This document shows positions 20,028-41,174 of a DNA stretch of 52,141 nucleotides, in pieces. Where the stretch lies: NCBI GenBank assembly GCA_019750255.1, contig JAIEOU010000006.1:1-52141 (forward strand). The letters are read 5' to 3'. A model generated the notes under the pieces. That model had not been told where the DNA came from. It searched no databases and saw nothing but the letters and a program-made list of their open reading frames with translations. The first letter of the stretch is position 1. The number at the start of each line of letters is the position of its first letter. Both the position numbers and the translations under genes were made by a program. Source of the stretch: Patescibacteria group bacterium. GTDB lineage: Bacteria > Patescibacteriota > Minisyncoccia > Phycocordibacterales > UBA918.

Positions 20028-21009
20028 GGTCTTGATCATCGCTCTGTATTCCGGAACGTACATAGAATGCCACATGGTCACCCGTTTCTGATTCAGTATA
20101 AGAAACCATCGATCGACGCCACCAGAATACCATAGCAATGGAAAGCACGAACAACAACCCAAACAGCCCAGCTAAATATGACAGGGGTGCGGCATAGAAA
20201 AAGGCAGTATCGTAAACCATGGCCTTTTGACCCACTCCGTACTCAAGGTTTAAAAAAGCCTTGTACTTACCGAAGAGCCCTTGTGGTGTTATAGAGTCCT
20301 TGAATTCAGCCGTTTCACCAGGAGCAATAGTACGATTCTCGGCATTCAGGGTCACGGTACCCACCTCTTCACCCCGCGTATTGTAGAGAATGACCTCACC
20401 AGTTGGCGTAAGCGGAACATCACCAGGATTCGTCACTGCGTAGGACAGAGTGTTATCTCCAAGTCCGGTGATTAGGCGGTCGACGTTAAATCTGGTCAGT
20501 CGCAAGAATTCGGTTCTGGTATCGGCAATGGAAATGCGCACAATGACGCCCGTGGCCGCACCGCTAATGACTTTAGCTTCTGCTTCATCCCGGTTTGTGC
20601 CGCTACCAAAACCAATGAACGCATGGTAAAGACCCGGCTTCGCGTTAGGATTTATTTTGAAGCTTATAGGTAGACTGGTAGAAGCACCAGGAGGTAGCTC
20701 GAGCCGGCCACGGTCGATGGCGATCCAACTCGTTACCGACGTGGTGTTATCACTCATTGATGGTGGCACAAACGACTCGATCGCTCCTCCGGCGTCCAGG
20801 GTGATGGAATTCACTGAGGCGAAGAGGCGTACCGGCAACGCGGTGTCATTGGTGAGGGTGATGGTTTCTGAGAACATGTCGCGAGCCTCCACGGTGCGGT
20901 CAATGATGAGAGGGGACGCCGTCACTGAAGCAAAGAGCAGCGTCGGCGCCAAGATCACACCGCCTATACAGAGGGCCAGAAGTCGATACAACATAGATAC
21001 AGATATCAT
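19990..21009 (-). CDS. DUF916-like secreted Ig protein with C-terminal membrane helix
   Basis: 339 residues. Signal peptide (about 1-27), then two Ig-like domains: the first with SPLIIDRTVEARDMFSETI and PPGASTSLPISF, the second with NPGDVPLTPTGEVILYN. A membrane helix (about 279-298) and a short charged cytoplasmic tail follow. It shares layout and motifs (ETITLTND / GxYHAF / NPGDVPLTP) with the genes at 18306 and 36848, so the three are paralogues. It sits 5 bases after the 2051-residue protein gene and overlaps the LytR_C-fusion gene, so the three are probably one operon. The function is unknown; surface attachment or assembly is an inference. Confidence 0.8.
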   Translation of the reverse strand: MISVSMLYRLLALCIGGVILAPTLLFASVTASPLIIDRTVEARDMFSETITLTNDTALPVRLFASVNSITLDAGGAIESFVPPSMSDNTTSVTSWIAIDRGRLELPPGASTSLPISFKINPNAKPGLYHAFIGFGSGTNRDEAEAKVISGAATGVIVRISIADTRTEFLRLTRFNVDRLITGLGDNTLSYAVTNPGDVPLTPTGEVILYNTRGEEVGTVTLNAENRTIAPGETAEFKDSITPQGLFGKYKAFLNLEYGVGQKAMVYDTAFFYAAPLSYLAGLFGLLFVLSIAMVFWWRRSMVSYTESETGDHVAFYVRSGIQSDDQDHDIKLSKSTTPP

Positions 21010-27000: not shown

Positions 27001-27170
27001 GGGCCATCGATGTTAGGCGAACCCTCTATCACTACCACCGCCGCTTCTGCCCTCTGTACTGAAAATATAAGTGCGGTACCAACGCCACTCAGAACTTCAA
27101 TTACGAGTACCGCAAGCAGCGCACCTGAAAAGGCACGCCGGACACAGTTTTCTAAGCGCAGTACGTTCAT
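21015..27170 (-). CDS. Giant secreted protein (2051 residues) with tandem CPR-type surface modules
   Basis: A signal peptide (about 1-43, ending QRAEAA) is followed by a beta-propeller-like part (about 45-425) with repeated W-containing segments such as GGASWGAAVTV and WHRSTNNMSSWGSE, resembling sialidase/BNR repeats without clear catalytic residues. Two 348-residue tandem repeats follow (about 430-1125). Each carries a YNCASE-type Cys segment, an HYHWR segment and a YCFRV segment. The C-terminal 200 residues form a module ending in a YxAxPxY-like tail shared with the surface protein at 33281. Cysteines recur in pairs, which fits the nearby thiol-disulfide enzymes. A role in cell-surface adhesion is inferred. 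No catalytic domain is seen. Confidence 0.85.
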   Translation of the reverse strand: MNVLRLENCVRRAFSGALLAVLVIEVLSGVGTALIFSVQRAEAAVVVIEGSPNIDGPSHTPIGSQTVFVDDQIGYKFFRSLAGTCQYRRTTNGGASWGAAVTVDTQADCVQVSVWYDQWTPGDTGALIHIVTMDTGDDDLFYNALDTTNDTLASTTARAVAVVGGTSATYVSNTNRASITKGTDGRIYVGADDASGTGSTIRRCSANCTITANWSAVGTPPQGNADSWTMFLPLLGGDILQINRSVTNLLRFSVWNGTSWSSYQNIDALAVRGSIYDVNMSATIDTDSGDVYLAYVTDADSYTVADHDIRTAVYSGGSWTNTADIVTNTSRGIHQVAIGRDQNTGDLYVAYTARTSLGTANTSNVFWHRSTNNMSSWGSENGPLATAGEFYALDMNIMSYERLYASWFDNVTAVRDIFGETIVNIGPEVRVSATSSQATPVRADTANFYVGGKFSIETTATRTVSTIVVTENGSVDANTELDNIKLFYEFDTSSPYNCASETYGGSETQFGSTETAGFSGSNGTASFNNTPLSFNPTATVCAYLVLDVLPNADDGDVIQVEISNPSLDVIISDVIAFPAIPVVVTGATTIADPNLTLGHYHWRNNDGSEAGATSATAGVQNTPLSAIQKNSPRRLRLGISVEGSTSTLPTTFVLEYGVAAPTCGAVSNWSTVGNDQPWNMFDSVSLTNGDNTTNIGTTTAGGVTDDNLVFLTPNAGVRDTTATSGTLTLATNNFVELEYSLVASSTAVEGETYCFRVSRSGTPLGAYNQYPQATVAADVSVTATGTQATSTDVGAANVYLGGTFRVVENSSARQVTSLTFSENGSVDGLTGLTNIRVRYDVDVSAPYNCASESFIGTEPTFGATASAFTTNDGTVTFNDSVAISTTSALCLYVQYDVRTVAAHNQTVNIYLASPNSDVTVSGGGSVGPSTVADVSGSTTVRGGILTQTHYHWRTDNGSEVTASSATNGTEDTPLTDFAREASIRLRLGISNEGPTTTSPTVLRLEYGIKITTCANVGVWTDVGASNDDWNMNNSANLVEGSNTTNIGTSSGGVTDENSSFLVSNGGVRDITSQTGTTTFTNTQHTDLEFSITATENTAYEATYCFRVTASGVALPAYDRYAELTTAPKRDYKIQRGDTTVSGTGVTIVAGVNYTAPASSSRAFIRITNIFDTGAGRNTGGVTQNADDVTAYIQNPENLLTSITFARPPAAINNTRVSWEIIEYIGESGTDNEMIVRDVGTVSFLTSSTVASSTVVGGVVDATDVVVFTTGAQTRATTQNFYTGQFTSAWSSTTNRAVFTRGASAATQAELSYAVVEFVGANWSIQRVEHTYGTSSSVETEEIIPVNSLAKTFIYAQKRTGAQANVINYGHEVRLSSITELSLRLEPGALASTSLSQVSVVWIIENAQQGNSAMQVQRKNGNTSGGTAPLSLSVPFVTPIAAMNNTSIFGNGRADGANTLYPHPQAGLSITSTTSFQIWRSGTAGSLTYRTEIVEWPVTDIGLRQNYYRLYTHNNALTPTDAWPAGPLDLGDNEALGVSREPIARGEQIRIRMTVRVSNANLPAGLRAFKLQYGLRSTTCPAVGVWTDVGAATSSTIWRGFTATGTSDGVAVSSEPPNNGELVFPLISDVGGRLTHQNPAAANPYLVLEGEDVEYDWHVEHNGAVARSTYCFRMVKIDDTPLDGYMQYPQIRTAGYNPVSRNWRWYSDVLNETPTTTLAVENAAPIEVENDSVLALRVTVGETKNATGTDIRFRLQFSDDINFTVPREVSATSSCTSASLWCYTSGGAADHSLISSTTLSDASSCVAGVGVGCGRHVSAPTYRAGHVHPALTSQEHSFTLRQSGARTRTVYYFRLFDTVNGEVVPLGSGEAYPSLVTQGPTLVFGVSGLPAGTSTAAVVTDVSTTPEGIGFGSLIMNTDYEAAHRLSIVTNADEGYQVLLFARQQLLNSSGDRIAPIAASNSSPVAWTVGCPVSTSTGCVAYHTTDATLRGGSARFSPDDSYAGLSLSAQEIMHSSIPSTDSHDIVFRVRVGELQPAGDYETEVVYLAVPTY
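23790..25885 (-). repeat. Two tandem 348-residue protein repeats in the 2051-residue protein
   Basis: Anchors SSQATPVRADTANFYVGG (about 25870) and GTQATSTDVGAANVYLGG (about 24830) are 1044 bases apart. Anchors HYHWRNNDGSE (about 25370) and HYHWRTDNGSE (about 24325) are offset by the same amount. The copies have diverged at the DNA level, so this is an old duplication. Confidence 0.8.
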
Positions 27171-27203: not shown

Positions 27204-28775
27204 CTATAGTTCTAAAGAATTCTGTGTACTGGTGGCTGGAGCAATGTACAAATCAAAAGGCGTACTGGTGGGAGCCTCGATCAATACCGCTTCCATTGCC
27301 TGTGGGAGGCGCAAATCAATAGTGAGGCTTTCACTTGTGCTGGCAAGACTTGGAACCAATCCCTCGGGTTCAGGTTCGTCACCCGCAAATTCCCCGTCAT
27401 GTTCCTGTGACTTGTTTTGAATGAGAGCACGCGTCTCACCGGTGCTTTCACTATCGGGCAACTCGTCGGGAAGTGAGGCTGGTACAACCCCAAGGGCACT
27501 TATTTTTCCGGTTACCAAATCCATACCGCGCATAACCACGTCACCATTATCGTACACAGCCTCATAGACCATCATCATCCGTGGATTAGACATAGCAGCA
27601 CCTTCAGCATCATCTATGGTACGGAGGGTACCGGTCACGAGGTCATAGGTCTGTAATTGGGGATTACCCATTTCATTACTGGTATGCCACAAAATCAGAT
27701 CACCTCGTATGTGCGGAGCAACGTGATGATTGGCTGCGGTGGTAAGCTGCTCCACCGTCTCCCCATCGCTCACCATGACGTGCCAAAAACCATCAACCCA
27801 ACGTTGCCATACCGTGTACGTGCCCGAACGAGTAGGTTCCATATCGTTGAATTCACCGTCGGTGATTACCGATTCCTTTCCAGATTCAACCTCATAAGAA
27901 ACAATAACGTAACGGTCGTTCAACAGTCTGTGCCACACAATACTCTTAGAGCGGCCGTCGTAAAAAGGAGCTGCGTCATCAACATAATTGTTTGATATTT
28001 GGTGGTATTCCCCATTCTTAACCACAAAAATCTCTAAATCTCCGCCACTGTCAGGTTCGGCAATAATCGCGTCACTGACTGTGCCGGGAGCTTTTTTTGT
28101 TTGACAATAATATGCCCCACCATCAACGAGAACACAATTGTCTTTTGCGAAACGCACCTCCCCATCACCGAAAGACTCATGAACAAGGGGGCCAGCCTCG
28201 ATGAAGGTTGTTGTTGAACTTACATCCGCCAAAACGGTTGAAGTTGCAGTGCTGGTACCAAGCTCTTCATTGCTACCCGCATCTGGAAAAGTATTGTTCT
28301 CGCCGTTACCAAGCGCGGATGGTGGTGAGGTAGTGCCTAGTTCACTGGATGAACTGGAAGAAGTGTCGTCAGGCCGCGGCAAGGCTGGTTCTGTAGGGGC
28401 AAGCGTTTCACCCATTACTAACTCACCCGACTCGTCCGAATCTCGGGCCTTGTCTGGTGTACTTGGTTCCTCTACCGCTTGTTCAGATATATCACCTACC
28501 TCCAGGTCGGTGGGTGCGGGACCGTCTGCCGCAGAGGCGGGAATGTCGATTATAAGCGGCTCAAGTACAGCATCCTCATTACTATCAACTTCAACCGCAT
28601 CATTAGTGGTATTCACTTCAGGGGCTACTTGTGCGTTGGCTCGGTAAAACGGCTGGAGAAAGAACGACGTCATAAGGAGTGCGAGCAGGAGAAAAGACAG
28701 TCGGGTCGTATATACCATTCGATATAAGCGTACCCGATTAGAATATCGTTCTTGAAATAATAGTTTTTTATTCAT
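27204..28775 (-). CDS. Secreted TolB-like beta-propeller protein
   Basis: 523 residues from the ATG at 28775. A basic start and a hydrophobic signal segment (about 25-45, ending RANAQ) lead into an acidic Ser/Thr/Pro-rich stretch (about 50-190). A region of repeated beta-strand units (about 195-430) follows, with motifs such as SIVWHRLLNDRYVIVSY, YTVWQRWVDGFWHVMVSD and DLILWHTSNEMGNPQLQ. Their spacing is typical of TolB/propeller blades. The C-terminus is acidic, with a final APATSTQNSLEL. An ATG at 28718 is an alternative start that gives a cleaner signal peptide. It lies 33 bases upstream of the 2051-residue protein gene. The function is unknown; a surface-exposed binding protein is likely. 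Confidence 0.75.
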   Translation of the reverse strand: MNKKLLFQERYSNRVRLYRMVYTTRLSFLLLALLMTSFFLQPFYRANAQVAPEVNTTNDAVEVDSNEDAVLEPLIIDIPASAADGPAPTDLEVGDISEQAVEEPSTPDKARDSDESGELVMGETLAPTEPALPRPDDTSSSSSSELGTTSPPSALGNGENNTFPDAGSNEELGTSTATSTVLADVSSTTTFIEAGPLVHESFGDGEVRFAKDNCVLVDGGAYYCQTKKAPGTVSDAIIAEPDSGGDLEIFVVKNGEYHQISNNYVDDAAPFYDGRSKSIVWHRLLNDRYVIVSYEVESGKESVITDGEFNDMEPTRSGTYTVWQRWVDGFWHVMVSDGETVEQLTTAANHHVAPHIRGDLILWHTSNEMGNPQLQTYDLVTGTLRTIDDAEGAAMSNPRMMMVYEAVYDNGDVVMRGMDLVTGKISALGVVPASLPDELPDSESTGETRALIQNKSQEHDGEFAGDEPEPEGLVPSLASTSESLTIDLRLPQAMEAVLIEAPTSTPFDLYIAPATSTQNSLEL

Positions 28776-28781
28776 GGTGTC

Positions 28782-28800
28782 TTGGGTAAGGCACACCCAA
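28782..28800. promoter_or_regulatory. Inverted repeat before the TolB-like gene
   Basis: TTGGGT (28782-28787) and ACCCAA (28795-28800) flank a 7-base loop, 7 bases upstream of the ATG at 28775. This could be an operator or a small mRNA hairpin. Confidence 0.3.
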
Positions 28801-28885: not shown

Positions 28886-29653
28886 CTAGCGGGATGACGG
28901 TCCAAAAAATGATTCCGATAGAATAATCGCAAAATCTTTAAAAGTCATTCTCCCATCATTATTAAAATCATACACAGCGGTGCGGCCGTGCCAGGCCCCT
29001 AAAAAAGCACTAATATCTTTGAGCGAGACTCTACCATCGCCGTCAATATCAGTCACCAAATGGAGTCGTATATCAGCTGAAATGTTCGCGATGTCACCAC
29101 CCTCATTCCCTTCTTCCATCACTAAAATATTAGCCTTGCTCTGTTCAGGTTTGCCGGTAAGTACCGGAGTTCCCTTACCGTCTCCGGCCAATAAATTAAG
29201 ACTGCCGATTGAAAATTCAGCTTGACCAGCTTGTTTAGCCTTCATGTTTACCGTAGCGATAAGATGCTCTCCTCGAAAGCCGCGCTGGAAAGTACCACCG
29301 CGCAAAGTTATGACACCATTCTTAACGGCCGGCTCTTCGGTCCATAATGTAATTACCGACTCACCTCTATCGATACCAATAATTTCAACCGCGTGGTCTG
29401 AAAAGGAAAGCGAAATATCAACAGCATTCACTGGTTCGTGGGCATTAACGTAAATGCCCACCGAAAAACGTTCACCCGAGGCCAGTGTGGTGGTGGATGG
29501 GGCAATGCGGATGTACGAATACGCGACCGAATTCAGCGCAGAAGCACTCAATACAGCAGCCAAACCAAGTACAAACGGAAACATGTATCGTACCGGCCCA
29601 GGCGTGCTTGGGTGATAGATACTCCTCCAGACTGTGGTTAGCCACTGCGCCAT
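28886..29653 (-). CDS. Cohesin-dockerin hybrid protein with N-terminal membrane anchor
   Basis: 255 residues. A membrane helix (about 22-45) is followed by a cohesin-like beta domain (about 46-180) with FSVGIYVNAHEPVNAVDISL, VITLWTEEP and AGDGKGTPVLT. The C-terminus (about 203-250) is a type I dockerin-like pair of calcium loops: DIDGDGRVSLKD and DFNNDGRMTFKD. Both loops keep the D-x-[DN]-x-D-G...D ligands. Cohesins bind dockerins in extracellular assemblies, so this single protein could bridge a dockerin partner and a cohesin partner, or bind copies of itself. It ends the four-gene unit begun at 33152, 4 bases after the 227-residue helical protein. Confidence 0.85.
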   Translation of the reverse strand: MAQWLTTVWRSIYHPSTPGPVRYMFPFVLGLAAVLSASALNSVAYSYIRIAPSTTTLASGERFSVGIYVNAHEPVNAVDISLSFSDHAVEIIGIDRGESVITLWTEEPAVKNGVITLRGGTFQRGFRGEHLIATVNMKAKQAGQAEFSIGSLNLLAGDGKGTPVLTGKPEQSKANILVMEEGNEGGDIANISADIRLHLVTDIDGDGRVSLKDISAFLGAWHGRTAVYDFNNDGRMTFKDFAIILSESFFGPSSR

Positions 29654-29657
29654 AAAG

Positions 29658-30341
29658 TTACAGAGCGGTCCCGAGCGATGCCCGTAGCTCGTTTATCTTT
29701 GTAGCGTTATATGTTTGCATTTGGACCACCTCACTAACTTCCTTTAATAAAGTAGCAATTTCTGGTGACGACACTGTTTTACCCGCCATGAGTGTATCTA
29801 TGATGTCACCCTGGAGTAGTACTAAACGCTCGAAAAGAGTACTCTGCTCGATCTCATATCCAACCAACTGCTGCCATGTCGCAACGCTAAATTGTGCTAC
29901 ATCGGCCTGTGGCGATACGCGCAATAAACGTTCAGTGAGAAGCTCGTACAGTTCAACTTCTCGCTGTAAACGCGCGGTCATCACGGCTTTTTGTCGAGAG
30001 TAAAAAGGTGCGCAGCGATCGAACAGTCGCGAAAGCTCTGACAGTTCTGTTTGGCTGAGTCCACCTGATAACCTTCCGAGTAAATCGTCAAAGCGATTAC
30101 GTTCATTAGGAACGCAGTCTTTAATAACGCTTTCAGTAATACTATCGACGCCACCGCGAGCCATCACCTCAGAGAGGGTTGAAACAGTAGTGAGCTGGGA
30201 GGCAATATCTAAAGTGGCTTCGGCCGTCATGCCACTGAGTCGTTCCTTAACTATGATGGATGCAGTCAGATATCCCAGAGCAACTGCGAGTACCACTACG
30301 GCTCCTACAAACTGAATAGTGCGTGTCGTTATCATATCCAT
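29658..30341 (-). CDS. Membrane-anchored helical protein, function unknown
   Basis: 227 residues. An N-terminal membrane helix (about 10-31) is followed by an external, almost wholly helical domain. Two cysteines (KDCVPNE and FDRCAPFY), about 33 residues apart, could form a disulfide holding a helical hairpin. It is encoded between the cohesin-dockerin gene (4-base gap) and the 588-residue cohesin gene (7-base gap), so it belongs to the same operon. No family was recognised. The helical character contrasts with the beta-rich neighbours and suggests a spacer or scaffold part of the same complex, which is an inference. Confidence 0.75.
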   Translation of the reverse strand: MDMITTRTIQFVGAVVVLAVALGYLTASIIVKERLSGMTAEATLDIASQLTTVSTLSEVMARGGVDSITESVIKDCVPNERNRFDDLLGRLSGGLSQTELSELSRLFDRCAPFYSRQKAVMTARLQREVELYELLTERLLRVSPQADVAQFSVATWQQLVGYEIEQSTLFERLVLLQGDIIDTLMAGKTVSSPEIATLLKEVSEVVQMQTYNATKINELRASLGTAL

Positions 30342-30348
30342 CCAGTCA

Positions 30349-32115
30349 TTATTTTAAAGTAATATCACTTCCACCACGGACAACCCGATCGACGTCAGCA
30401 ACTTCTTTTTCGACCCTGCGTTCAGCGTCCGTTAGAGCGGTTTTTAGCGAAGCTATCATGTCAGCTTCAGCTTTGGTAAGCTTGGCTCCCTTGCGGGCCG
30501 CTAACAATGCCTCTTCATGTGCAGTTAGGGTTGCGGTGAGTGTTGCAAATTCACGCCGTAACATCACAATCGCCTCCTTTGATTCCACCGTAACTCGTCG
30601 ACGGAACCGACGAAGGTAACCAATGAGGACCCAACTGCCAATAACAGACAGGGCGGTGAGAGCAAGCAACGAAACCACCACTGATAGCACGCTCACTAAG
30701 AAGGAACCAATTCTAACAAACCCAGGCTGTTGGACCGCTATGCGGATTGGGGCTGAGGTCTCGCTTTGGGCTCCACGCTCGTCAGTAGCCAGTGCCGTCA
30801 CTTCGTATACGCCAGTACTAAATGAACCTTCTGGAATAAAGGTAAACACGCCACCGTCATCACTAGTAACGGTGTACTCTTGAGTATCAGCGCCCATCCG
30901 CGTAAGTGAAATCAAAACTGAAGATCGCGGACGCGTGGTTCCTTTTATAACTGGAATAATGCCCTCTCCTAATTCTGGTGGGTAGTCGGTGAACACAGGT
31001 CTATCGAAGGCTGAGGTAGTAAACGAAAACGAACCAATGATTCCGTTACCTCCTTGATCAAAGGCCTCGATAACAACCGCATGATACCCAGGCGAAAGTA
31101 CTGGCAGCGTAATTCTCCCCGTTTCATCCTTATCTATAAACTCATACGCTGGTTCATTATCGATCTTTACTTGATAGCGGATAACCTTAGACGCTGTATC
31201 AGTAGCCATTAGCAAAAGTGTCTGTTGTGGGTTTGAGAGGTCAGCATCAGGCGGAAGCGCTATGCTAAATTCACTTGGCTTCTCGCTATCTACGGCTAGT
31301 CGATAGTGAGCCACTCTTCCCCACCCCTCTTCGTTTCTAAACTGAATATGGAAATAAGAAATCCCTTCCGGCAAGTCATTAAGGGTCAGGGTGCGTATTG
31401 GCTCTTCATACACTCGTGTCGGAATGGTGGCAGGTCGGTCATCAAGCAGCGTGCGAACTGAAGTAATGCCGGCTGGTAACTCCCACGACAACACTGCAGT
31501 TTTTGCAGCATGCCACGCCCGCTCATCGCTATGAGTACTTGAGCGGACAACGGGAGCACTTGGGGTGTTGGCTGGGGCGACATACTCAATAACTTCTGGC
31601 GCTGGTGCAGTAGTAGCCGCACCGATCGTGTAAGAACCACTCGACATACCGGTAAGGACGTTGGTACCTTTACCGTCATTAGCCAGTACTGAACCCTGAG
31701 TAAAGCTCAGTCGCGGCGTGCCCGCTGTAGCAGCCCGCATAGTAATACTCATGACGGTACCCGCACTTCCCGTATACCCGGCTGGTGAGCCACCACTAAA
31801 TGTAATCGTACCTGCACTGTTGGAAAAGGTGGGTTCTGTCACCCATAAACTAAAAATGGAATTCGAGCGATTAACGGAAACCACACTCACCTCTCGAGGA
31901 TTGAAGCTAATAGTTCCTTCAGCGGCATTGATCGGCTTACCAGCACTATCAACCATCACTGTTACCGTAAAACTAGAGCCGGTTGTGTATACCCCCGTGC
32001 CTGGTGTAAGTCGCAGCGTGGCTGCCTCAGCCACAATAGACCACAATGAGAAAAACAGAACCACGGTAGCAAAAGTGACCGTTCGCACCAATTGTCTGTT
32101 ACTTACGTTGATCAT
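30349..32115 (-). CDS. Cohesin-domain membrane protein with Ig domains and a cytoplasmic coiled coil
   Basis: 588 residues. Signal peptide (about 1-31), cohesin-like domain (about 32-165) with FSLWVTEPTFSNSAG and ANDGKGTNVLT, then Ig-like beta domains (about 200-455) with SDDGGVFTFIPEGSFSTG. A membrane helix (about 470-498) is followed by a basic stretch (YLRRFRRRV) and a charged helical tail of about 90 residues likely to form a coiled coil inside the cell. This links a surface cohesin to a cytoplasmic oligomerisation segment. The ATG overlaps the stop of the upstream cohesin gene by 4 bases (ATGA). Ligand unknown; the two dockerin proteins encoded nearby are natural candidates. Confidence 0.85.
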   Translation of the reverse strand: MINVSNRQLVRTVTFATVVLFFSLWSIVAEAATLRLTPGTGVYTTGSSFTVTVMVDSAGKPINAAEGTISFNPREVSVVSVNRSNSIFSLWVTEPTFSNSAGTITFSGGSPAGYTGSAGTVMSITMRAATAGTPRLSFTQGSVLANDGKGTNVLTGMSSGSYTIGAATTAPAPEVIEYVAPANTPSAPVVRSSTHSDERAWHAAKTAVLSWELPAGITSVRTLLDDRPATIPTRVYEEPIRTLTLNDLPEGISYFHIQFRNEEGWGRVAHYRLAVDSEKPSEFSIALPPDADLSNPQQTLLLMATDTASKVIRYQVKIDNEPAYEFIDKDETGRITLPVLSPGYHAVVIEAFDQGGNGIIGSFSFTTSAFDRPVFTDYPPELGEGIIPVIKGTTRPRSSVLISLTRMGADTQEYTVTSDDGGVFTFIPEGSFSTGVYEVTALATDERGAQSETSAPIRIAVQQPGFVRIGSFLVSVLSVVVSLLALTALSVIGSWVLIGYLRRFRRRVTVESKEAIVMLRREFATLTATLTAHEEALLAARKGAKLTKAEADMIASLKTALTDAERRVEKEVADVDRVVRGGSDITLK

Positions 32116-33152
32116 TGTATCGATGTAATTACCGGATCAGTGGACTCAACCTCTCTTTCCGTTTCAACTTTGTGGTGCTTGCGACGACGAATCCAGTACC
32201 AGATCCCACCGATTACCGAAAGAATGAGAATTACAAGTACTGCGAGTCCCGCATAGACTATGCGCTGTTCGTTAGAAAGTGAACGCTGTGACTCCTCCGG
32301 GATGTACGTCGCAATGTACTCATTACCGGCCTTATCGAGGGCGCGTACTCGAATAGTACTGTTTAATGACTGATCTTGTAAGACATACGGACTGCGCGTT
32401 TCTACCCATGGCGCATCAGCTCGACCCCAGGTGAAGCTGCCAAATTCACTAGTCGGCTCTTCCATAACTTCATAGTGGCTAATCCCTGTCTCCTTATCGG
32501 TGGTGCTGAAGACGATAAAATAGTTACCATCGAACGCTAGTGTGTCACGTTCAAGCCCAATACTAAATTCTTGCGGAGGCGTTACATCATTTGCTACCGA
32601 CTCTCTCCATGTATCAGTTACAGTCTGTCCAGGGGTACGCTCAAGGGTAATAACTGACGGGTAGGTCGTGAGCGCTGCCAATGTACCCATTCCATCGTTT
32701 AAAAAAACCTGCGTTTCGGGAGCAAATGAAACCCGAGCGGTGTTAGCATCACTACCGCCACCAATTTGTAGTCCGGGCGACCGAAAAACGACCTTAGCAA
32801 TGATATTCGAGAGGCGCGGATCCCCTTCAATTCGTCCGCAATAACCATTTGGAATACCGCCAGCAAAGGTGATTGTACGGTTCTCCGGATTTATCTTTGG
32901 CGCTTCGACCCAGACACTAAAAATTGAGTCACCGAGCGAAACATCTACGGGCTGAATGCTCGCATCGTAATTAATGACCGCATCTACAGCATTAATACAT
33001 TCGCCGGCAGCCTCATCAGTATCCACTCTAACAGACAGCGTCACCGAATCGCTACGACTCACTGTTGGGAACGGCGGATCAATATACAGCGTTGCAGCTG
33101 AAACAAAACTACTTGGCAGCAGCAAAAAAAGCCCGAGCAGAATCCTTAACAT
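32112..33152 (-). CDS. Cohesin-domain protein anchored by a C-terminal membrane helix
   Basis: 346 residues from the ATG at 33152. Signal peptide (about 1-19, ending FVSAAT), then a cohesin-like domain (about 20-165) with VTLSVRVDTDEAAGECINAV, SIFSVWVEAP and NDGMGT. It has two extra cysteines (GECINA and NGYCGR) not seen in the two paralogues. A second beta domain (about 190-290) precedes a membrane helix (about 300-322) and a short basic tail. It heads the cohesin operon. The TTG at 33212 was rejected as start because an extended -10 box lies between it and the ATG. Confidence 0.85.
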   Translation of the reverse strand: MLRILLGLFLLLPSSFVSAATLYIDPPFPTVSRSDSVTLSVRVDTDEAAGECINAVDAVINYDASIQPVDVSLGDSIFSVWVEAPKINPENRTITFAGGIPNGYCGRIEGDPRLSNIIAKVVFRSPGLQIGGGSDANTARVSFAPETQVFLNDGMGTLAALTTYPSVITLERTPGQTVTDTWRESVANDVTPPQEFSIGLERDTLAFDGNYFIVFSTTDKETGISHYEVMEEPTSEFGSFTWGRADAPWVETRSPYVLQDQSLNSTIRVRALDKAGNEYIATYIPEESQRSLSNEQRIVYAGLAVLVILILSVIGGIWYWIRRRKHHKVETEREVESTDPVITSIQ

Positions 33153-33161
33153 TATGACAAC

Positions 33162-33170
33162 AGTATACCA
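33162..33170 (-). promoter_or_regulatory. Extended -10 box of the cohesin operon
   Basis: TGGTATACT on the - strand is a TGn-extended -10 element ending 9 bases before the ATG at 33152. It predicts a leader of only 2-3 bases for the four-gene cohesin/dockerin unit. Confidence 0.5.
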
Positions 33171-33214
33171 ATAGAGTAAGCAATGGGAGGCCGCCTGTTC
33201 ACAGAACCACAAAC

Positions 33215-33249
33215 AAAAAACCCCCTCGTGGTGGGAGATAGGGTTTTTT
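33215..33249 (-). terminator. Intrinsic terminator after the surface protein at 33281
   Basis: On the - strand AAAAAACCC pairs with GGGTTTTTT around a loop containing a smaller CTC/GAG stem. The T-run TTTTTT ends the transcript. It lies 32 bases past the stop codon. The symmetric A/T flanks make it potentially bidirectional. Confidence 0.75.
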
Positions 33250-33280
33250 GCGTTAACTCCAAGCTTGGAACCAATATTCT

Positions 33281-34429
33281 TTAGAATACCGGGGTTGCTA
33301 CGTATGTCAGCGTAGCGTTGTAATCATCGCCCGCTTCTTGCAAAGCAGAGATTTGAATTTGATATCCCACTTGTGTCTGACCCATATGTGGCTCAGACCC
33401 ATCGGCAGGACCGTTGTGGCGGAACACTTCAACTGGCGTTGTAGATGCAGACACATAACGATTACCGATTCCATTGACCAAATACGGGTCAGAAAGTCCT
33501 GCGGTAATGCTATTGTCATTTGTAGTAATGCCCCAATGGCCATACGTATCTTCATTGCCAATTGATGGCGTAGGGGCTACCCAAGCAGTTGGCGTACTGG
33601 TGTACGCACCGTTACTGAATCCGTCAATGTCTGCTCCGGTTGCTGATACGAGCTGCCCATCAACTTGCACAGTTACCACAAAGCCATTACTAGCATTTGT
33701 TTCAACTGACAGCTGCTGTGCGACGGTCGTAGCCACTCCTGGTACAAGCTTTCCGAACGGAATGGAAGTAGCGGTAGATGAACCGGTGGTAGACGTACCA
33801 TTGATTGACTCATTCTCTCCCAGTCCATCGACTGTAAAAGTAAGCTGAGTTTCAACCGAAGCGGTGACTTCAACCGGACTCAAAATTGCTACTCGCGTAG
33901 CTCCAACATCAAGAGTTCCTACACCGAGACTTATCTCGTATGAGCCTACTCCTGGATTGGTGATACGTTCATCTCCAGTCACTCCCTGGGTCGCATTAGT
34001 ACCGATGGCAATGGTAACCGTAGCACTGCTCGCGATCGTACCGCTACCGCTTGTGAGCGTAATAGCAGTCGCAGTGGTGGTAGCGCCCCAGACTGCCCCT
34101 GAAGGACCAGCTGCAAGAGTTACCGGCGTACCATTAACAGTGAGGTCTATGTCTCCAAAGTCGATTGCGGCAATGCCGGCAAACGTGGCTGCTGGAAACG
34201 TTACGACAATCGTACCTCCTGCTGCAACTCCATTTGGAGTATTAAACGAGAGCGTATGATTTGAAGGTAGTGCTGGTGCTGAATCTGACAAGGTGTCACT
34301 GAACGACGTGACATTTGCTGCCTCCGCAAAGCGGAATGACGTTAATCCGAGTGACCACAAAATGATCGCAATAGCTAACGTCGCGGCAGTTGCTTGGAGT
34401 AACGAGAACGAGGTTCTCGTTATACTCAT
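33281..34429 (-). CDS. Secreted beta-rich surface protein, possible S-layer-like or pilin-like component
   Basis: 382 residues. A signal peptide (about 1-37, ending FAEAAN) is followed by Ala/Thr/Ser/Val/Gly-rich beta-sheet sequence with no catalytic motif. The last 170 residues hold a module with FGKLVPG, LSVETNASNGFVV and a terminal YNATLTYVATPVF, which resembles the end of the 2051-residue protein. It is a single-gene unit with a 34.4-34.8 kb leader region and its own strong terminator. That layout fits a highly expressed structural surface protein, but function and abundance are inferred. A 13-base-pair hairpin begins at the third base of the ATG. Confidence 0.8.
   Translation of the reverse strand: MSITRTSFSLLQATAATLAIAIILWSLGLTSFRFAEAANVTSFSDTLSDSAPALPSNHTLSFNTPNGVAAGGTIVVTFPAATFAGIAAIDFGDIDLTVNGTPVTLAAGPSGAVWGATTTATAITLTSGSGTIASSATVTIAIGTNATQGVTGDERITNPGVGSYEISLGVGTLDVGATRVAILSPVEVTASVETQLTFTVDGLGENESINGTSTTGSSTATSIPFGKLVPGVATTVAQQLSVETNASNGFVVTVQVDGQLVSATGADIDGFSNGAYTSTPTAWVAPTPSIGNEDTYGHWGITTNDNSITAGLSDPYLVNGIGNRYVSASTTPVEVFRHNGPADGSEPHMGQTQVGYQIQISALQEAGDDYNATLTYVATPVF
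34397..34427 (-). promoter_or_regulatory. Strong hairpin overlapping the start codon of the surface protein
   Basis: In the mRNA, AACGAGAAC pairs with GTTCTCGTT around a CTC loop. After a 2-base bulge, GAGT pairs with ACTC, bringing the stem to 13 pairs. It covers the last base of the ATG through about codon 11. It could block or pace initiation, or protect the 5' end. Confidence 0.6.
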
Positions 34430-35039
34430 GTTTCTCTACGTTGTATTAGCTTACAGCCTTTACTGCTTTGTATCGCGACGACAGGCAGTAAAGCATGGAA
34501 AAAATCCGGACAGAGCGTAGTCTCCACACCACAAACCGTCACAAAACTATAAGCGTACACACCACGTAACACTCGGCTGAAGTGTCCACCATCGCGACGA
34601 GGGTGCAGTGATACTAATTGATCACCTCCGTAGCGCGTACTTCTTCATTCTACGCGTTGTAAAAAAAAGTTTATCTAGTTATACACAAAAATGTAACCGG
34701 AATTATTAATTTGATTTATTAAATTTAATTACGTACGGAAAACGCATGAATAATTTAGCAAGCGTACTCGCCGCCTATCTATAAAAATACCTTATGGAGG
34801 TACTGTATCTACTATATTTTTAAAAGCATTTTTCATTCAAACAACTATGGAAGTCACCAGATGTAGCTTTTACAAAAATGCTGCACTAGATATTGCGCAG
34901 GCACTATCCAAATCACACAGTAGACACACATCGGTTGCAGTTGTCTCAGATTAATAATTAGGTCTAAAAAACGCCGCATCCCTTAAGTCTAACCTTGAAG
35001 GATACGGCGCTTAATAACTTCAACAGCAGATCTGAGTCT
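34430..35039. other. 610-base intergenic region: leader/regulatory region of the surface protein
   Basis: The longest gap in the window. From the surface-protein ATG outward it holds a 9-bp inverted repeat CTTTACTGC/GCAGTAAAG (34458-34466 and 34485-34493), two copies of ATCGCGACGA (34472-34481 and 34591-34600), an AT-rich stretch (about 34661-34735) with a perfect DnaA-type box TTATACACA (34679-34687), and the terminator of the next gene. The likely promoter of the surface protein is in the AT-rich part, giving a leader of about 230 bases. Short + strand frames (such as 35 codons at 34847-34954) lack ribosome binding sites and are not called. Confidence 0.5.
34966..35009 (-). terminator. Intrinsic terminator after the 187-residue secreted protein
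   Basis: On the - strand CGCCGTATCC pairs with GGATGCGGCG (one T-G wobble) around an 18-base apical part that itself can fold, followed by TTTTTT. It begins 31 bases after the stop codon at 35040. Confidence 0.85.
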
Positions 35040-35603
35040 CTATTTCTTCTTTGTCGAAAAAGATGTCAAAACGTTATTTTTTATGACAAAATCCAGAGTG
35101 TTGGATTTTTCTATTGACTGCCGATTGGTGTCATCACATGCCCGCGCATCTAGAGGACAGTCACCAAGCACAATCATGGCTCGATACGTACCGTCATAGC
35201 GATTCTTACCTTTACCACTTGGTAGAATAAGGTCAGTGTAAGGTAGGCGAGCAACACTATTGCCAGACACTAACCAATTACCACCATAACTACTCACCTC
35301 AGGTATAGTCGGGGCTTTTCCTAATCGAGTTTTAAGACGCTCCACTACTACGGTTTTATGTGTGAAGGGATTCAGAGTTATATTCGTTGCGACCCAATGA
35401 AATGACAACTTCCCTTTCCGGTCATAATCTGCAGTTACAAGAGTCAGTTCAGGCTTACTGTTGGAAAACAATTCTTGGTAGAAAAATCCTTGATCTCCAT
35501 CAAAACCAGTTACGCCTGATACAGACTGGGCTAGTGCAGGCGTAGAAATTGTTAATGCGATTAGAACATAGGCGAATACAAGTACATTTTTTATGTTTAC
35601 CAT
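35040..35603 (-). CDS. Small secreted protein, function unknown
   Basis: 187 residues. A clear signal peptide (about 1-25, ending TPALAQ) is followed by a soluble beta-rich domain of about 160 residues. It has two cysteines close together (GDCPLDARACDD), likely a disulfide, and a Lys-rich end (SFSTKKK). No family was recognised. It is a separate transcription unit: 134 bases of non-coding sequence separate it from the dockerin gene and a strong terminator follows. A TAAAAT box lies about 75 bases upstream. Its surroundings suggest a minor surface or secreted component. Confidence 0.75.
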   Translation of the reverse strand: MVNIKNVLVFAYVLIALTISTPALAQSVSGVTGFDGDQGFFYQELFSNSKPELTLVTADYDRKGKLSFHWVATNITLNPFTHKTVVVERLKTRLGKAPTIPEVSSYGGNWLVSGNSVARLPYTDLILPSGKGKNRYDGTYRAMIVLGDCPLDARACDDTNRQSIEKSNTLDFVIKNNVLTSFSTKKK

Positions 35604-35737
35604 GGGTCGATATGTGAAATTAATTGATACTACCTGTCTTCAATTACATGATACAACTCTTCAGACAACAATTATTTTACCATTTGTGCATAGAGTTACA
35701 TCCAAGAGAAAGTCACCACAGCTGCATCCGTATACAA

Positions 35738-36841
35738 CTATCCCGTCCAGTTGAATAGTAGAATTGAGAAGTCTTCGATACCAACGCGTGCGTTCCCACT
35801 AATATCAGCCGGTGGATTTGAATCACCGCCATTAGTGCCCCACCAAAAAATAAGTATGGAGAAGTCAGTAAGGTTAACTTTTCCATCACGACTGAGGTCC
35901 GACGGCGTCGTGGCGCGACCGTCGACGCCCAAAAAAAGCTGCAAGGTACTACTCCAACTACTCTGTGTAGAAAGAGGTGCACTACCGGAGACAGAACGGG
36001 CTCTGAGGGCATATTCTGCTGCTCTGAGGCCGCTAGTATTCAGTTCAACCTGCCACGCACCAGTAGCACTCGAGGAGGCAGTGAGAGAGCGTGCGTTATT
36101 CCCAACCTGTACTTCGATACGCGCACTGGGAATTGATTGCCCGCTTACCGTTACGGTATCACCAGGATTTGGATTAGTATTAGAAACTCGAATTGTGGGT
36201 GGCACAATCAGTCCGTTTACGTTGGTGATTGCACCTTGAGTCACGTCAAAGGTGGAGTTCAGGGTAATCGACCTGGCACCACTAGTATCAGTTGTCCAGA
36301 GACCCAATGTTGCGGTTCCTGGGGACGCTTCAGCTGTAAATTCAAAGCGACCCTGTCCATCTGCCTGGACACTTCCTACGGATTCAGTGTCGAGCAAAAT
36401 ATTCACACTACGACCTGGATAACCCCGACCGGTGATACTTATCTGCGTATCACCTTGCTCACGACTTGAACCGCCACCACCTCCCGAACTACCACCAGAA
36501 GCCCCTCCACCACCGGATCCGGCTGGTTCAATTTTACAGGTAGCTGAACAGAAGTCAGAATTATCATTATTGCCGTCATCACACTCTTCGGCAAAGAGTG
36601 TCTGCAAAACACCATCACCACAATACGGACCAAAGAAACAGACAGCAGAACACTGACGTCCAGCAATAGTCGTACTGTAGGCACCGGTCTCACCAGGCAT
36701 GTCGCACTGTTCCCCGTCATCAACAATCATGTTTCCACAAATACTGACCGACAAAGTGGTCGTAGTGGTAGCCACTGTCGCAGCCCAGACACCGACTGGG
36801 GCCGCAATCAACACGAACGCGGTGATCAAAGCGAATCTCAT
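35738..36841 (-). CDS. Secreted DUF4215 - Ig - dockerin protein
   Basis: 367 residues. Signal peptide (about 1-21), then a Cys-rich DUF4215/Myxococcus-type disulfide region (about 34-105) with GNMIVDDGEQCD and CGDGVLQTLFAEECDDGN. A Gly/Ser linker (about 108-125) leads to two Ig-like carbohydrate-regulatory-type domains (about 130-310) with SITGRGYPGRSVNILLDTES and VSGQSIPSARIEVQV. The C-terminus (about 318-367) is dockerin-like: DLSRDGKVNLTD keeps the calcium ligands, while the second loop DISGNARVGIED is degenerate. It could dock on the cohesin proteins encoded at 28886-33152. It is 6 bases downstream of the DUF916-like gene, so the two are co-transcribed. Confidence 0.85.
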   Translation of the reverse strand: MRFALITAFVLIAAPVGVWAATVATTTTTLSVSICGNMIVDDGEQCDMPGETGAYSTTIAGRQCSAVCFFGPYCGDGVLQTLFAEECDDGNNDNSDFCSATCKIEPAGSGGGGASGGSSGGGGGSSREQGDTQISITGRGYPGRSVNILLDTESVGSVQADGQGRFEFTAEASPGTATLGLWTTDTSGARSITLNSTFDVTQGAITNVNGLIVPPTIRVSNTNPNPGDTVTVSGQSIPSARIEVQVGNNARSLTASSSATGAWQVELNTSGLRAAEYALRARSVSGSAPLSTQSSWSSTLQLFLGVDGRATTPSDLSRDGKVNLTDFSILIFWWGTNGGDSNPPADISGNARVGIEDFSILLFNWTG

Positions 36842-36847
36842 AGAGCG

Positions 36848-37801
36848 TTATAGAGCTTTTGCACGCCGCCGTCGAGCGCTGTAGATGGCGTAGAGAATAA
36901 GAATGACAGTCGCAAAGAGTGGAATTAACAACGACAGCTTATGGATGAACGATAGGCCCATAAAGCCAAAACCAGCGAGCTGTAGTGAGCCGTACGGAAC
37001 AATGGTCATATTCAATTCCCCACCGTGTTTAACCTCTTCTCCATTAAGAATACTAAACCGCACGAAGTAGTTTCCGGCCGGTAGACGAGTTGGTAATTCA
37101 GCCATGATCTCTTCAGTGGCGTAGGGGGCTACTTTCGTAATGCGGCCAATGTGTGACGTTTCCTCAAGAAGCAAGTTTCCGTTAAAGTCGTAGATTTTGA
37201 AAGCAACTTCTGACGGAGCTACGTCAACGTTACCGGTATTTTCAAGCAGCATCCCAAACCGGATCTTACCAGGGAAAAATAACCAAGCTACTTTGTGACC
37301 AGCATTAAGATCAGCGAGGGATACCTTACGAATTCTAAAATCTTCAATTTTTCTATCGATAACGCTGAGATTAATTTCTACCTGAGCACCAAGTGAAATA
37401 TTAACAGCACCCGCAGCAACTGCATTATCATCAGGAACTGTTTTTATCCGAATCACACCGTTGTAGTCTTTAAACTCTGCATCACTGGGGACACGAACAC
37501 GAACAGTCATAGATACCTTCTGCTCGCCACGCGGCAGTGCAATTGAGGGTCCTTCGACAATTTCTATCCAGGAAGCAATCTCAGGAGCGTCAACGGTAAC
37601 AAGTGCCTTAAGCGGAACAGATGGATCACCACGAACCAATAAAATTTGTTGCTCATAAGTAGTATTGCGGGTCAGACTTGTATTCCGAACGTAGGGCGGC
37701 GTAATACCAAAGCTAGCCAATGAAACCTCCGGGAGGAGCACAAAGAACAAGAACACACAGCAAAGAAAAACTTGCCTCCACTGTTTAAAAAAAACCCACA
37801 T
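36848..37801 (-). CDS. DUF916-like secreted Ig protein with C-terminal membrane helix
   Basis: 317 residues. A hydrophobic signal (about 8-28) is followed by two Ig-like domains with TPPYVRNTSLTRNTTYEQQI, RVRVPSDAEFKDYNGVIRI and ENTGNVDVAPSEVAFKIYD, then a membrane helix (about 288-308) and a basic tail (SARRRRAKAL). Same architecture as the genes at 19990 and 18306. The ATG at 37801 is preferred; the TTG at 37843 would run through a strong hairpin. It precedes the dockerin gene by 6 bases. That pairing suggests it anchors or escorts the dockerin protein, as DUF916-type proteins do for WxL proteins in Firmicutes (an analogy only). Confidence 0.8.
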   Translation of the reverse strand: MWVFFKQWRQVFLCCVFLFFVLLPEVSLASFGITPPYVRNTSLTRNTTYEQQILLVRGDPSVPLKALVTVDAPEIASWIEIVEGPSIALPRGEQKVSMTVRVRVPSDAEFKDYNGVIRIKTVPDDNAVAAGAVNISLGAQVEINLSVIDRKIEDFRIRKVSLADLNAGHKVAWLFFPGKIRFGMLLENTGNVDVAPSEVAFKIYDFNGNLLLEETSHIGRITKVAPYATEEIMAELPTRLPAGNYFVRFSILNGEEVKHGGELNMTIVPYGSLQLAGFGFMGLSFIHKLSLLIPLFATVILILYAIYSARRRRAKAL

Positions 37802-37815
37802 GTACGTCAGTACAT

Positions 37816-37874
37816 TATGGCAAACGCATGCCATACAACGCAACAGCCACTGCTGGGATAACAGTGGCTGTTGC
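37816..37874. terminator. Two tandem hairpins between the 617-residue protein and the DUF916-like gene
   Basis: GCAACAGCCACTG (37840-37852) and CAGTGGCTGTTGC (37862-37874) form a perfect 13-pair stem with a 9-base loop. Next to it TATGGCA (37816-37822) and TGCCATA (37829-37835) form a 7-pair stem. No T-run follows on either strand. It may be a terminator-like or mRNA-stability element starting 22 bases past the stop of the gene at 37897. Confidence 0.55.
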
Positions 37875-37896: not shown

Positions 37897-39750
37897 TTAC
37901 CATTCACCCGGTTCAGACACGACTGCCATGAAGGTGTTAAGTCCTGTGTAGGCACCAGCAAGTGTAATCGTACCCGGTACAGAGATACCCCAGAACGTAC
38001 GTCCTTGAGCAAACTGAGATGTCGAAGTACTCTTTCGCACGTTGAGCTCTAGTTGAAATGGAGTCGTCGAAGAGAGGATGAAGCCGCTTGCGTAGGCCAC
38101 ACTCGATGTACCAAATCTTTGATTACTTTCCGCAACAGTAGAAGTAGCTGACGCACGACACTCGTTACCAATACTGAAAGTAGTACACATCGACTCACCT
38201 TCAACATTTTGGTCCAAACCAGCATTACCGACAGCCTGAATCGTAGTTGAAGCCGTTAGGGGTCCGACCGCAGCACCTGGTTCAAGGGCTCCGTAAGGGA
38301 TTTCAGCCGTTAGGAGAGAGAGTGCTGGGAACGTGAGGATTTCGACAAAGTTTGTTCCCACATTCAGCGTCCCGGTAGCATTGTCATCGTCCACTCCTGC
38401 TACCGCTGCTGTCCAAGAAGCAGTATTAAATGGAGAACTGCTGTCGGTCGGATCAGCCAGGAACCATAGTGGAAATGTACATGTCCAATCAACTGATGGG
38501 TCAGTCGGGCCGCCACAGGTGGTAGAGGATGCGGTGCAGGCAATATTCCAGGTGGTTGTAGCCGAACCACTCGTATAACAGTTGTTTGGGTTGTAGGCAC
38601 CGGCTGTCCCGTTACAGGTAGTCGATCCAATATCTGAGCGGAAGACCGATACTACGCTACGCACAACCTCGCTCGTACTTGCTGCGGTGAGACAACTGTT
38701 TGCGTCAGAGGTGGTAAATGCAAGCGGAAAGCCAGTAGTTTGACCGGCTGGATTCGACAACGAGATATTTAATCCACCATTAAGAGTTATTGATCCGCCG
38801 GCAACTGTGGGAGCTACATTGTTCACGATGAATCCAGGCAGTGGACCGTTAGAGCCTTGAGTTCCTCCGATTGCGACATGACCGTGCTGGTCAATAATGT
38901 AGCCGAAACCATTGTAGGCCTGATCTTGAATGACGTTTGGTAGCGTATATAAGGCCGTAGCGTTGTCGTTGACGGTCCCTGTCGTTGATGCAATGGTTCC
39001 CCCGGCTCCACATGAACGAGTTGTGGTACTGAAGTCTTGGGCGTTACACACATGCAGAATAATTGCGTCATCACCACCGACTGAGTCAGGATCAGATGAC
39101 GTTGAGGAGAACGTCACTATTTGGCTCGGATCACGCGGCGAGTTGTTGAAGTAGTTTGTAAATACTGGACGCCGATTTATGTGAAATGGCGAACTGTTAG
39201 TAGCGGAAAGACCCTGCGAAGCCGTGTTGTTACAGCGAGGGTTAACGACGTCATAGTCACATACCCAAGCGAACCACGTGTTAAGTTCACTGTAAGGTGA
39301 GACCTCGGTGGTGGTAGTTGCGGCTCGAGCTTGGGTACCGCTCGTGGTTGAGGCAGAAAGAGCCCAAAGACTTGAGGTGGCATTACAGTACGGTGCAGCG
39401 TTTGAGCGAGCGGTTGGTGTCGCGCTGCTACTGCACACAATCAGGAAGTAGGGCTGGCCGTTTGAGTCAGTGGCCGTACCTCTCCAGGCAATTTCATTAC
39501 CAGAGTTGGTCGGCGTGTTTGTTGATGACTCCGTTTCTTCATACGCCAAAACGGTCCACTGCGGTGGTGTGTTAAGAACGGTGAGAGTTGTAGAAGCCGT
39601 TGAAGTTGCTTCAGCTTTCATAAGTTCGTTCGTTCCGGCGTTAAAAAGAAACGCTAGAATAAACACACCAAGACCTACCACAGCGGTCAGAATGGTGATT
39701 TTTCCTGCAGTGTTTACGAACTTTGGGAGACTGTCTACGTTGTACGCCAT
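37897..39750 (-). CDS. Large secreted surface protein with Cys-rich Ig-like modules
   Basis: 617 residues. A membrane/signal segment (about 15-38) sits after a short polar start, so the protein may stay anchored. A Ser/Thr-rich beta protein follows with many cysteines in short spacings (IVCSSSATP, AWVCDYDVVNPRCNN, TTCGGPTDP). The C-terminal 150 residues contain IPYGALEPG and a final WGISVPG...YTGLNTFMAV. This module recurs at the end of the giant protein at 44194. No catalytic residues are seen. It has its own upstream gap with a shared 13-base motif and DnaA-like boxes. A structural surface role is inferred. Confidence 0.8.
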   Translation of the reverse strand: MAYNVDSLPKFVNTAGKITILTAVVGLGVFILAFLFNAGTNELMKAEATSTASTTLTVLNTPPQWTVLAYEETESSTNTPTNSGNEIAWRGTATDSNGQPYFLIVCSSSATPTARSNAAPYCNATSSLWALSASTTSGTQARAATTTTEVSPYSELNTWFAWVCDYDVVNPRCNNTASQGLSATNSSPFHINRRPVFTNYFNNSPRDPSQIVTFSSTSSDPDSVGGDDAIILHVCNAQDFSTTTRSCGAGGTIASTTGTVNDNATALYTLPNVIQDQAYNGFGYIIDQHGHVAIGGTQGSNGPLPGFIVNNVAPTVAGGSITLNGGLNISLSNPAGQTTGFPLAFTTSDANSCLTAASTSEVVRSVVSVFRSDIGSTTCNGTAGAYNPNNCYTSGSATTTWNIACTASSTTCGGPTDPSVDWTCTFPLWFLADPTDSSSPFNTASWTAAVAGVDDDNATGTLNVGTNFVEILTFPALSLLTAEIPYGALEPGAAVGPLTASTTIQAVGNAGLDQNVEGESMCTTFSIGNECRASATSTVAESNQRFGTSSVAYASGFILSSTTPFQLELNVRKSTSTSQFAQGRTFWGISVPGTITLAGAYTGLNTFMAVVSEPGEW

Positions 39751-41033: not shown

Positions 41034-41174
41034 AGATAATAAAGGACCAGTAATGCCGTCATTGCGCCTTTATTGCAGGAAAAAAGGTCGCGCCACACAC
41101 CATTACGTTCTTACCTGCACATAGTAACACTATACCCGCAGGGCTCAGCTCAATTTATTCACCCAAGAGACTCG

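Follow-up and report, generated by a model that had tools for sequence, protein, structure and literature searches.

A conserved cohesin–dockerin cassette without recognised enzymes in Patescibacteria and its probable relationship to a pilus system

Gene content and module identity

We analyzed a window of 52,141 nucleotides (bases 1-52141 of contig 14) from a Patescibacteria genome (GCA_019750255.1; 0.95 Mb, 16 contigs, rated 99.9% complete) that contains a cluster of genes for cohesins and dockerins. Between 28886 and 37843 the minus strand carries w255, w227, w588, w366, w382, w187, w367 and w331, with three cohesin genes and two dockerins, w255 having both modules (Table 1). A sequence-only reading had named seven genes here, covering cohesin-like and dockerin-bearing proteins, a helical anchored protein and a DUF916-like partner, and saw in them a structural surface system free of glycoside hydrolases or other catalytic domains. 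All seven were found on the minus strand, but the limits it set, 28886-37801, did not hold, as the conserved cluster runs past both sides. Pfam-type scans of the cassette proteins and of the genome's four dockerin-bearing proteins detected no catalytic domain, and the idea of an enzyme-free structural system is supported.

That the modules are cohesins and dockerins is very likely. Against a PF00963 gathering cut-off of 24.1 bits, the w588 cohesin scored 27.1 bits, and w255 (18.6 bits) and w366 (15.2 bits) remained below it, so the profile search proposed for cohesins succeeded for w588 but not for the other two. Both are homologous to w588 (BLASTP E 8e-19 and 8e-15, respectively), and all cohesins are mutually homologous. 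In an AlphaFold 2 (AF2) model of w255 (mean predicted local distance difference test score, pLDDT, 68.7; mostly 75-89 in the cohesin part and ~60 in the dockerin part), the top 47 Foldseek rows were cohesins or cohesin complexes (E 1.6e-8), and 131 residues aligned with a cohesin at 2.0 Å (VIA-align Z 16.0). The count of three cohesin-like proteins stands, w588 by PF00963, w255 and w366 by homology and w255 also by its predicted fold.

The corresponding dockerin search (PF00404, cut-off 22.9 bits) was positive for the w367 module by itself (32.6 bits) and marginal for w255 (19.6 bits, or 24.1 when in-frame neighbours are included); a PF00404 match at E<0.1 in 17/17 w255 orthologues upholds the second dockerin-bearing protein. 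A profile of free dockerins, those not fused to a cohesin, matches cellulosomal dockerins in the PDB (E 6.8e-8), and the ligands of both duplicated 12-residue calcium loops, with their F-hand helices, could be read in 71 free and 17 cohesin–dockerin (Coh-Doc) dockerins. Both loops, with Ser at position 14 of each, are present in 71/71 free dockerins; the second loop of the w367 dockerin has Asn at position 5. Positions 10-11 of the free dockerins are mostly Leu-Val/Ile, where C. thermocellum has Ser-Thr, and the Coh-Doc dockerins form a sequence class apart.

Membrane helices were called by hydropathy in 80 long (w588-type) cohesin, 81 short (w366-type) cohesin and 71 free dockerin proteins. 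All 80 long proteins have a C-terminal membrane helix followed by a tail (median 86 residues) with a Lys/Arg-rich start; the tail of w588, of ~90 residues, is likewise Lys/Arg-rich at its start and predicted to be cytoplasmic. A helix near the C-terminus was found in 76/81 short cohesin proteins. Because 68 of the 71 free dockerin proteins have no membrane helix, they probably depend on a cohesin to stay on the cell; in 62/71 a WTG terminus follows the dockerin immediately.

Table 1. Cassette genes and flanking genes in the window, by position
Gene	Coordinates	Strand	Features
w618 + w339	18306..21009	-	Two more DUF916/WxLIP-like membrane proteins
w2051	21015..27170	-	Surface protein, 2051 aa; Pam-pilin-like C-terminal domain
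w530	27204..28796	-	Secreted, conserved downstream; weak beta-propeller similarity
w255	28886..29653	-	N-terminal hydrophobic segment, cohesin (~45-180), C-terminal dockerin (~201-250); Coh-Doc adaptor (putative)
w227	29658..30341	-	N-terminal membrane helix and apparently helical domain; family unassigned; genus-conserved between w588 and w255
w588	30349..32115	-	Signal peptide, cohesin, immunoglobulin (Ig)-like domains, membrane helix, tail; long membrane cohesin
w366	32112..33212	-	Signal peptide, cohesin, C-terminal membrane helix; short membrane cohesin
w382	33281..34429	-	Secreted; Pam-pilin-like C-terminal domain, terminal residues ATLTYVATPVF
w187	35040-35603	-	Secreted; weak PEBP-like match
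w367	35738..36841	-	Secreted; DUF4215 Cys-rich domain, two Ig-like (Big_6) domains, C-terminal dockerin ending WTG; free dockerin client (putative)
w331	36848..37843	-	DUF916/WxLIP-like; signal peptide, two beta-sandwich domains (first PapD-like), C-terminal membrane helix
w617	37897..39750	-	Large surface protein; conserved next cassette gene

The w366 and w588 genes overlap by 4 bp. The helical anchored protein of the sequence-only reading corresponds to w227, whose N-terminal membrane helix is present and whose helical character was judged by eye. No counterpart of w187 was found in the related cassettes searched, and this gene is not conserved. Genomes across the genus also keep, immediately upstream of the cassette (39825-42497), genes for a MacB-like permease and an ABC ATPase, a pair that possibly serves export or envelope quality control.

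Operon conservation and cohesin–dockerin pairing

The genome has a second set of these genes at 65.3-69.7 kb of contig 14, comprising a long protein (cohesin, Ig, transmembrane helix and coil; Coh-Ig-TM-coil), an Hsp20-like gene and a 669-aa dockerin protein, as well as a lone Coh-Doc gene on contig 11. The Hsp20-like (small heat-shock) gene lies between dockerin and long cohesin genes (L010:13304-17707), a position kept in several related genomes. Among 59 genomes (this one and its relatives), cohesins occur in 32, dockerins in 34 and both in 30. In 14 or more genomes of the genus the cassette w617 - w331 - w367 - w382 - w366 - w588 - w227 - w255 - w530 keeps an identical order, contigs permitting, and this conservation of order and content argues against chance. 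In the genus gene maps, a giant protein usually follows w530.

For a scan of the phylum, 17 long cohesin proteins were used as queries against named genomes, yielding 313 relatives, of which the best 80 were used. Where lineage-named, all of these 80 belong to Patescibacteria groups, including Kaiser-, Niyogi-, Colwell-, Falkow-, Magasanik-, Uhr-, Doudna- and Nomurabacteria, one Microgenomatus and others. The core gene order across the phylum is dockerin, short Coh-TM, long Coh-Ig-TM-coil. Adjacency was assessed in the 64 loci whose sequence extends 3 kb or more beyond the long cohesin gene on its upstream side: a second cohesin gene lies at most 2 genes away in 62 and a dockerin at most 3 genes away in 58, all on the same strand, and intergenic gaps within the core operon are near zero (medians 13 bp and -20 bp). 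A DUF916-like gene is close by in 41 loci; in 35 cases it immediately precedes the dockerin gene. Of 77 free dockerin open reading frames (ORFs) in the retrieved DNA, 76 have a cohesin gene no more than 3 kb away, the loci having been retrieved via their cohesins.

Across 333 Patescibacteria genomes sampled, dockerins occur in 111 and cohesins in 128, or about one third. Both were found in 93, a cohesin only in 35, a dockerin only in 18 and neither in 187, a co-occurrence (Fisher p 2e-34) whose significance is inflated by genome relatedness and fused Coh-Doc genes.

Several loci depart from the common layout. In four genomes of a distant family (L220-L223) a compact version consists of a small secreted protein, a short DUF916-like membrane protein, a dockerin protein (180-200 aa) and a cohesin protein whose membrane helices are N-terminal and which carries a four-cysteine motif. 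Large to giant proteins ending in a dockerin stand directly beside two membrane cohesin genes at L090 (G052 contig 10; 5198-aa open frame) and L137 (1792 aa). At L216 (G128 contig 7), ~12 kb of DNA encode six dockerin proteins (431-732 aa) in which Pfam shows no further domain, and the Doc/Coh/Coh-TM operon is present in the same genome; this is a many-client arrangement without recognised enzymes. At L218:8055-9731 (G376), two cohesins and a dockerin are combined in one protein of 559 aa, next to two dockerin proteins of 920-950 aa, and a 798-aa ORF at L167 (Lloydbacteria) unites DUF916-like, Ig and dockerin domains in one frame, linking both protein types.

Cohesin and dockerin sequences also covary at a single position. 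In 8 distinct dockerin/cohesin trios, both dockerin repeats carry Ser at position 10, and the long cohesin residue after a conserved Ile-Asn is Asn in 8/8 of them; in 75 Leu-type trios the same position is Ala in 73, Thr in 1, Gly in 1 and Asn in 0 (Fisher p 2.5e-11). From alignment of IANCDFVFRYDP with INAAEGTISFNP, the latter being the CipA stretch, we take this position to correspond to CipA Asn37. The assignment agrees with the register that HMMER gives for other cohesins. In the 1OHZ complex, CipA Asn37 and Asp39 contact the Ser/Thr motif of the dockerin (PMC5772552). An initial impression that only the long cohesin shifts with dockerin class was softened by a joint alignment, in which the short cohesin has Val at the same position in 5/7 Ser-type trios versus 1/65 others. 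Both membrane cohesins may, by these residues, bind the dockerin.

A tree of the rest of the long cohesin protein (Ig, membrane helix and coil) scatters the Ser class over 7 changes, at least 3 of them forced by supported branches. The cohesin-domain tree with the covarying column removed places the Ser type in one clade (96 by the Shimodaira–Hasegawa-like approximate likelihood ratio test, SH-aLRT), and many independent origins of the Ser/Asn change were rejected on this ground. Both trees come from quick searches and leave many forks open; the simplest reading is that a single Ser-type pair arose and that its matched cohesin and dockerin modules may later have moved together into differing backgrounds.

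Mutual binding, which the sequence-only reading had offered as inference, gains indirect support from conserved adjacency, genome-level co-occurrence and covariation at a known specificity contact. Cohesins and dockerins of the operon likely pair physically.

Pilus-like partners and a proposed anchoring role

The proposed DUF916-like partner, w331, has no direct Pfam DUF916 match. Its homologues match PF06030 (E 3e-4 for w618 and 3.8e-5 for an alignment member), though w331 homologues stay below threshold for PF06030/PF11797. The w331 model (pLDDT 85) nevertheless has the WxLIP fold and architecture of two beta-sandwich domains and a C-terminal membrane helix, and matches the E. faecium WxLIP structure 9i1y over 216 residues (Z 13.1) with a root-mean-square deviation (rmsd) of 14 Å across both domains, which probably reflects a differing inter-domain angle. 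Its first domain matches FimC-type chaperones over ~110 residues (Z ~12, 2.5 Å). Because PapD-like domains are widespread and cilia proteins appear on the same match list, this model-based match indicates fold, not chaperone activity. The partner assignment is borne out by PF06030 through the homologues and by the WxLIP and FimC-type fold matches. In w618 (18306-20162), the DUF916-like ectodomain is fused to a C-terminal LytR_C domain.

Other neighbours resemble the Pam pilus system of the Candidate Phyla Radiation (CPR). The C-terminal domain of w382, present in w2051 too, aligns over its full length with NCBIfam NF058581 ('Pam pilus system pilin subunit') at a sub-cut-off score, and no pilin in this genome exceeds the NF058581 cut-off of 55 bits (best 29.4 bits). 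Profile comparison (hhalign) of the w382-type domain with canonical Pam pilins gave E 1.3e-11 and a probability of 97%, and in two other genomes a gene above the NF058581 cut-off adjoins DUF916-like, dockerin and cohesin genes. A PDB search with the Pam-like domain returned no significant sequence relative. The small secreted proteins of 170 aa upstream of many cassettes, which by eye seemed WxL- or pilin-like, were rejected as such (profile comparison probability <2%, no PDB match).

Canonical Pam loci contain PamT (placed by position and size), pilins, a DUF916-like homologue, the membrane Ig protein PamR and a giant protein; w618 matches their DUF916-like protein (hidden Markov model E 7e-41). 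PamR (NF058578) gave no more than weak Ig-type matches in the cohesin/dockerin loci searched and no match in this genome, and its absence there suggests that a dockerin plus a membrane cohesin may take its place. Strong PamR is absent from the genomes with the strong operon, the two sets of 14 and 52 among the 333 genomes showing no overlap.

We lean towards a calcium-dependent, non-covalent device that would anchor secreted or pilus-like proteins to the cell surface. At the level of sequence and models, w588 and w366 appear to be exported, each with one cohesin fixed to the membrane by a C-terminal helix, and w367 to be secreted without a membrane anchor of its own, with a two-loop dockerin at its end. 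The w367 dockerin would dock in canonical cohesin–dockerin geometry on one of the membrane cohesins, the w588 one being the likeliest, and tie this secreted Ig protein to the cell; w255, with one cohesin and a dockerin of the other sequence class, could act as an adaptor or chain link. Encoded alongside are the predicted membrane-anchored WxLIP/PapD-like w331, perhaps a chaperone or anchor of the surface structure, and proteins ending in a Pam-pilin-like domain. With their giant neighbours, the latter may form a pilus-like or sheet-like structure that the tie anchors or organises, dockerin and membrane cohesin together doing the job of the single PamR protein. That secreted proteins are anchored to the membrane is likely; that this anchoring forms the base of something pilus-like, and not of an S-layer or a different surface assembly, falls just short of an even chance.

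Some observations weigh against this anchoring reading. The Pam match of w382 reaches 22 bits against the NCBI cut-off of 55, and the non-overlap of PamR and operon is not significant alone. The Ser/Asn covariation may come from one origin of the Ser-type pair, and the short cohesin shifts with it as well, so that either membrane cohesin may be the partner. Evolutionary distances of dockerin and long cohesin correlate at 0.81, but the Ig part of the dockerin protein does so at 0.78, and we judge this test weak since other parts of those proteins correlate as well. The case for binding consists of homology, adjacency and covariation.

Three alternatives were weighed. A minimal cellulosome, in which cohesins gather dockerin-bearing hydrolytic enzymes, would use the same module families, and Cloacimonadota have been reported with dockerin-bearing hydrolases and a multi-cohesin scaffoldin (PMC8542988); yet it is very improbable here. 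The cassette proteins have no detectable catalytic domain, cohesins come one per protein (5 in the genome) with no scaffoldin or carbohydrate-binding module seen, and the genome's four dockerin places are 2 on Coh-Doc proteins and 2 on Ig proteins. Even a genome rich in dockerin proteins had no catalytic Pfam domain on those scanned. The scans of our genome showed neither a dockerin-bearing carbohydrate-active enzyme nor a multi-cohesin scaffoldin with a carbohydrate-binding module, and the locus is not a cellulosome. The modules might instead be independent domains, with the dockerin serving as an EF-hand tail that binds calcium or as an adhesin for glycans, and the cohesins as generic Ig-like domains: EF-hand models score the w255 dockerin equal to PF00404, and host glycans are the suggested target of an essential Saccharibacterium dockerin protein (Wang et al. 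2023, PMC10633639). We give this a slim chance: domains that do not interact would hardly account for the fixed gene order, the co-occurrence and the covariation at the contact site, and the cohesin fold match is specific.

The locus could also assemble an S-layer, with the giant proteins as the layer and the cohesin/dockerin proteins fixing it to the membrane. Giant surface proteins do adjoin the cassette, one giant (the 5198-aa open frame) ends in a dockerin beside two cohesin genes, and weak NCBIfam matches to a 'putative S-layer protein' model exist. No established S-layer family is among the matches, however, and the shared neighbours point to the pilus system, making this credible but unlikely; the S-layer and pilus readings overlap at the anchoring step. 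Host attachment and surface-layer building, as put forward in the sequence-only reading, stand as hypotheses, a role in host-cell attachment being plausible for a Patescibacterium. The best functional lead differs from both and is the relationship to the CPR pilus system. At its widest, and tentatively, the anchoring reading would describe a phylum-wide enzyme-free machine: secreted dockerin-Ig proteins clipped to membrane cohesins that reach the cytoplasm, replacing PamR at the base of a Pam-like pilus or surface fibre in episymbiotic contact, with matched modules exchanged as a unit among proteins that otherwise differ, which would give orthogonal locks.

Comparison with known systems

In the literature searched, which left aside preprints and most subscription journals, we found no description of the cohesin–dockerin operon in Patescibacteria or CPR, nor of the Pam pilus. 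The modules are known and the neighbours partly known; no description of their combination and distribution was found. An essential dockerin gene, SEML1_0315, has been shown experimentally in a cultivated Saccharibacterium and is otherwise unexplained (PMC10633639); under the anchoring reading it would become a testable anchoring hypothesis. The reading would also show cohesin–dockerin pairs serving cell-surface building instead of enzyme gathering, and provide new calcium-dependent locks that are orthogonal by nature.

The type I cellulosome pair of C. thermocellum (CipA/Xyn10B, 1OHZ) shares with the Patescibacteria pair two calcium loops, a two-fold repeated recognition motif and the Asn37-versus-Ser-motif contact position. 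In Patescibacteria, however, the recognition residues are mostly Leu-Val/Ile instead of Ser-Thr, and single cohesins sit on membrane anchors without scaffoldin or hydrolases. The non-cellulosomal cohesins of C. perfringens (2vo8, linked to a glycoside hydrolase) and A. fulgidus (2xdh) have the cohesin fold in common with ours (Z 15.9 and 15.8) and likewise no cellulosome. Unlike them, the Patescibacteria genes form a conserved, enzyme-free operon of membrane cohesins, a free dockerin protein and WxLIP- and pilin-like partners.

Gram-positive WxL/WxLIP clusters encode the same kind of DUF916-like protein, with two beta-sandwich domains and a C-terminal membrane helix (fold matches 9i1y and 9i25), but are described as WxL and WxLIP genes without cohesin or dockerin (PMC10599100), both of which are present here; the putative WxL kinship of our locus rests on the WxLIP-like protein. 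With the CPR Pam pilus system (NF058578 PamR, NF058579 PamT and NF058581 pilin), the cassette shares a homologous pilin C-terminal domain, a DUF916-like membrane protein and a giant surface gene nearby. It differs in having no PamR, with the Doc/Coh/Coh-TM trio in its stead, and in pilin-like domains of its own that score under the cut-off.

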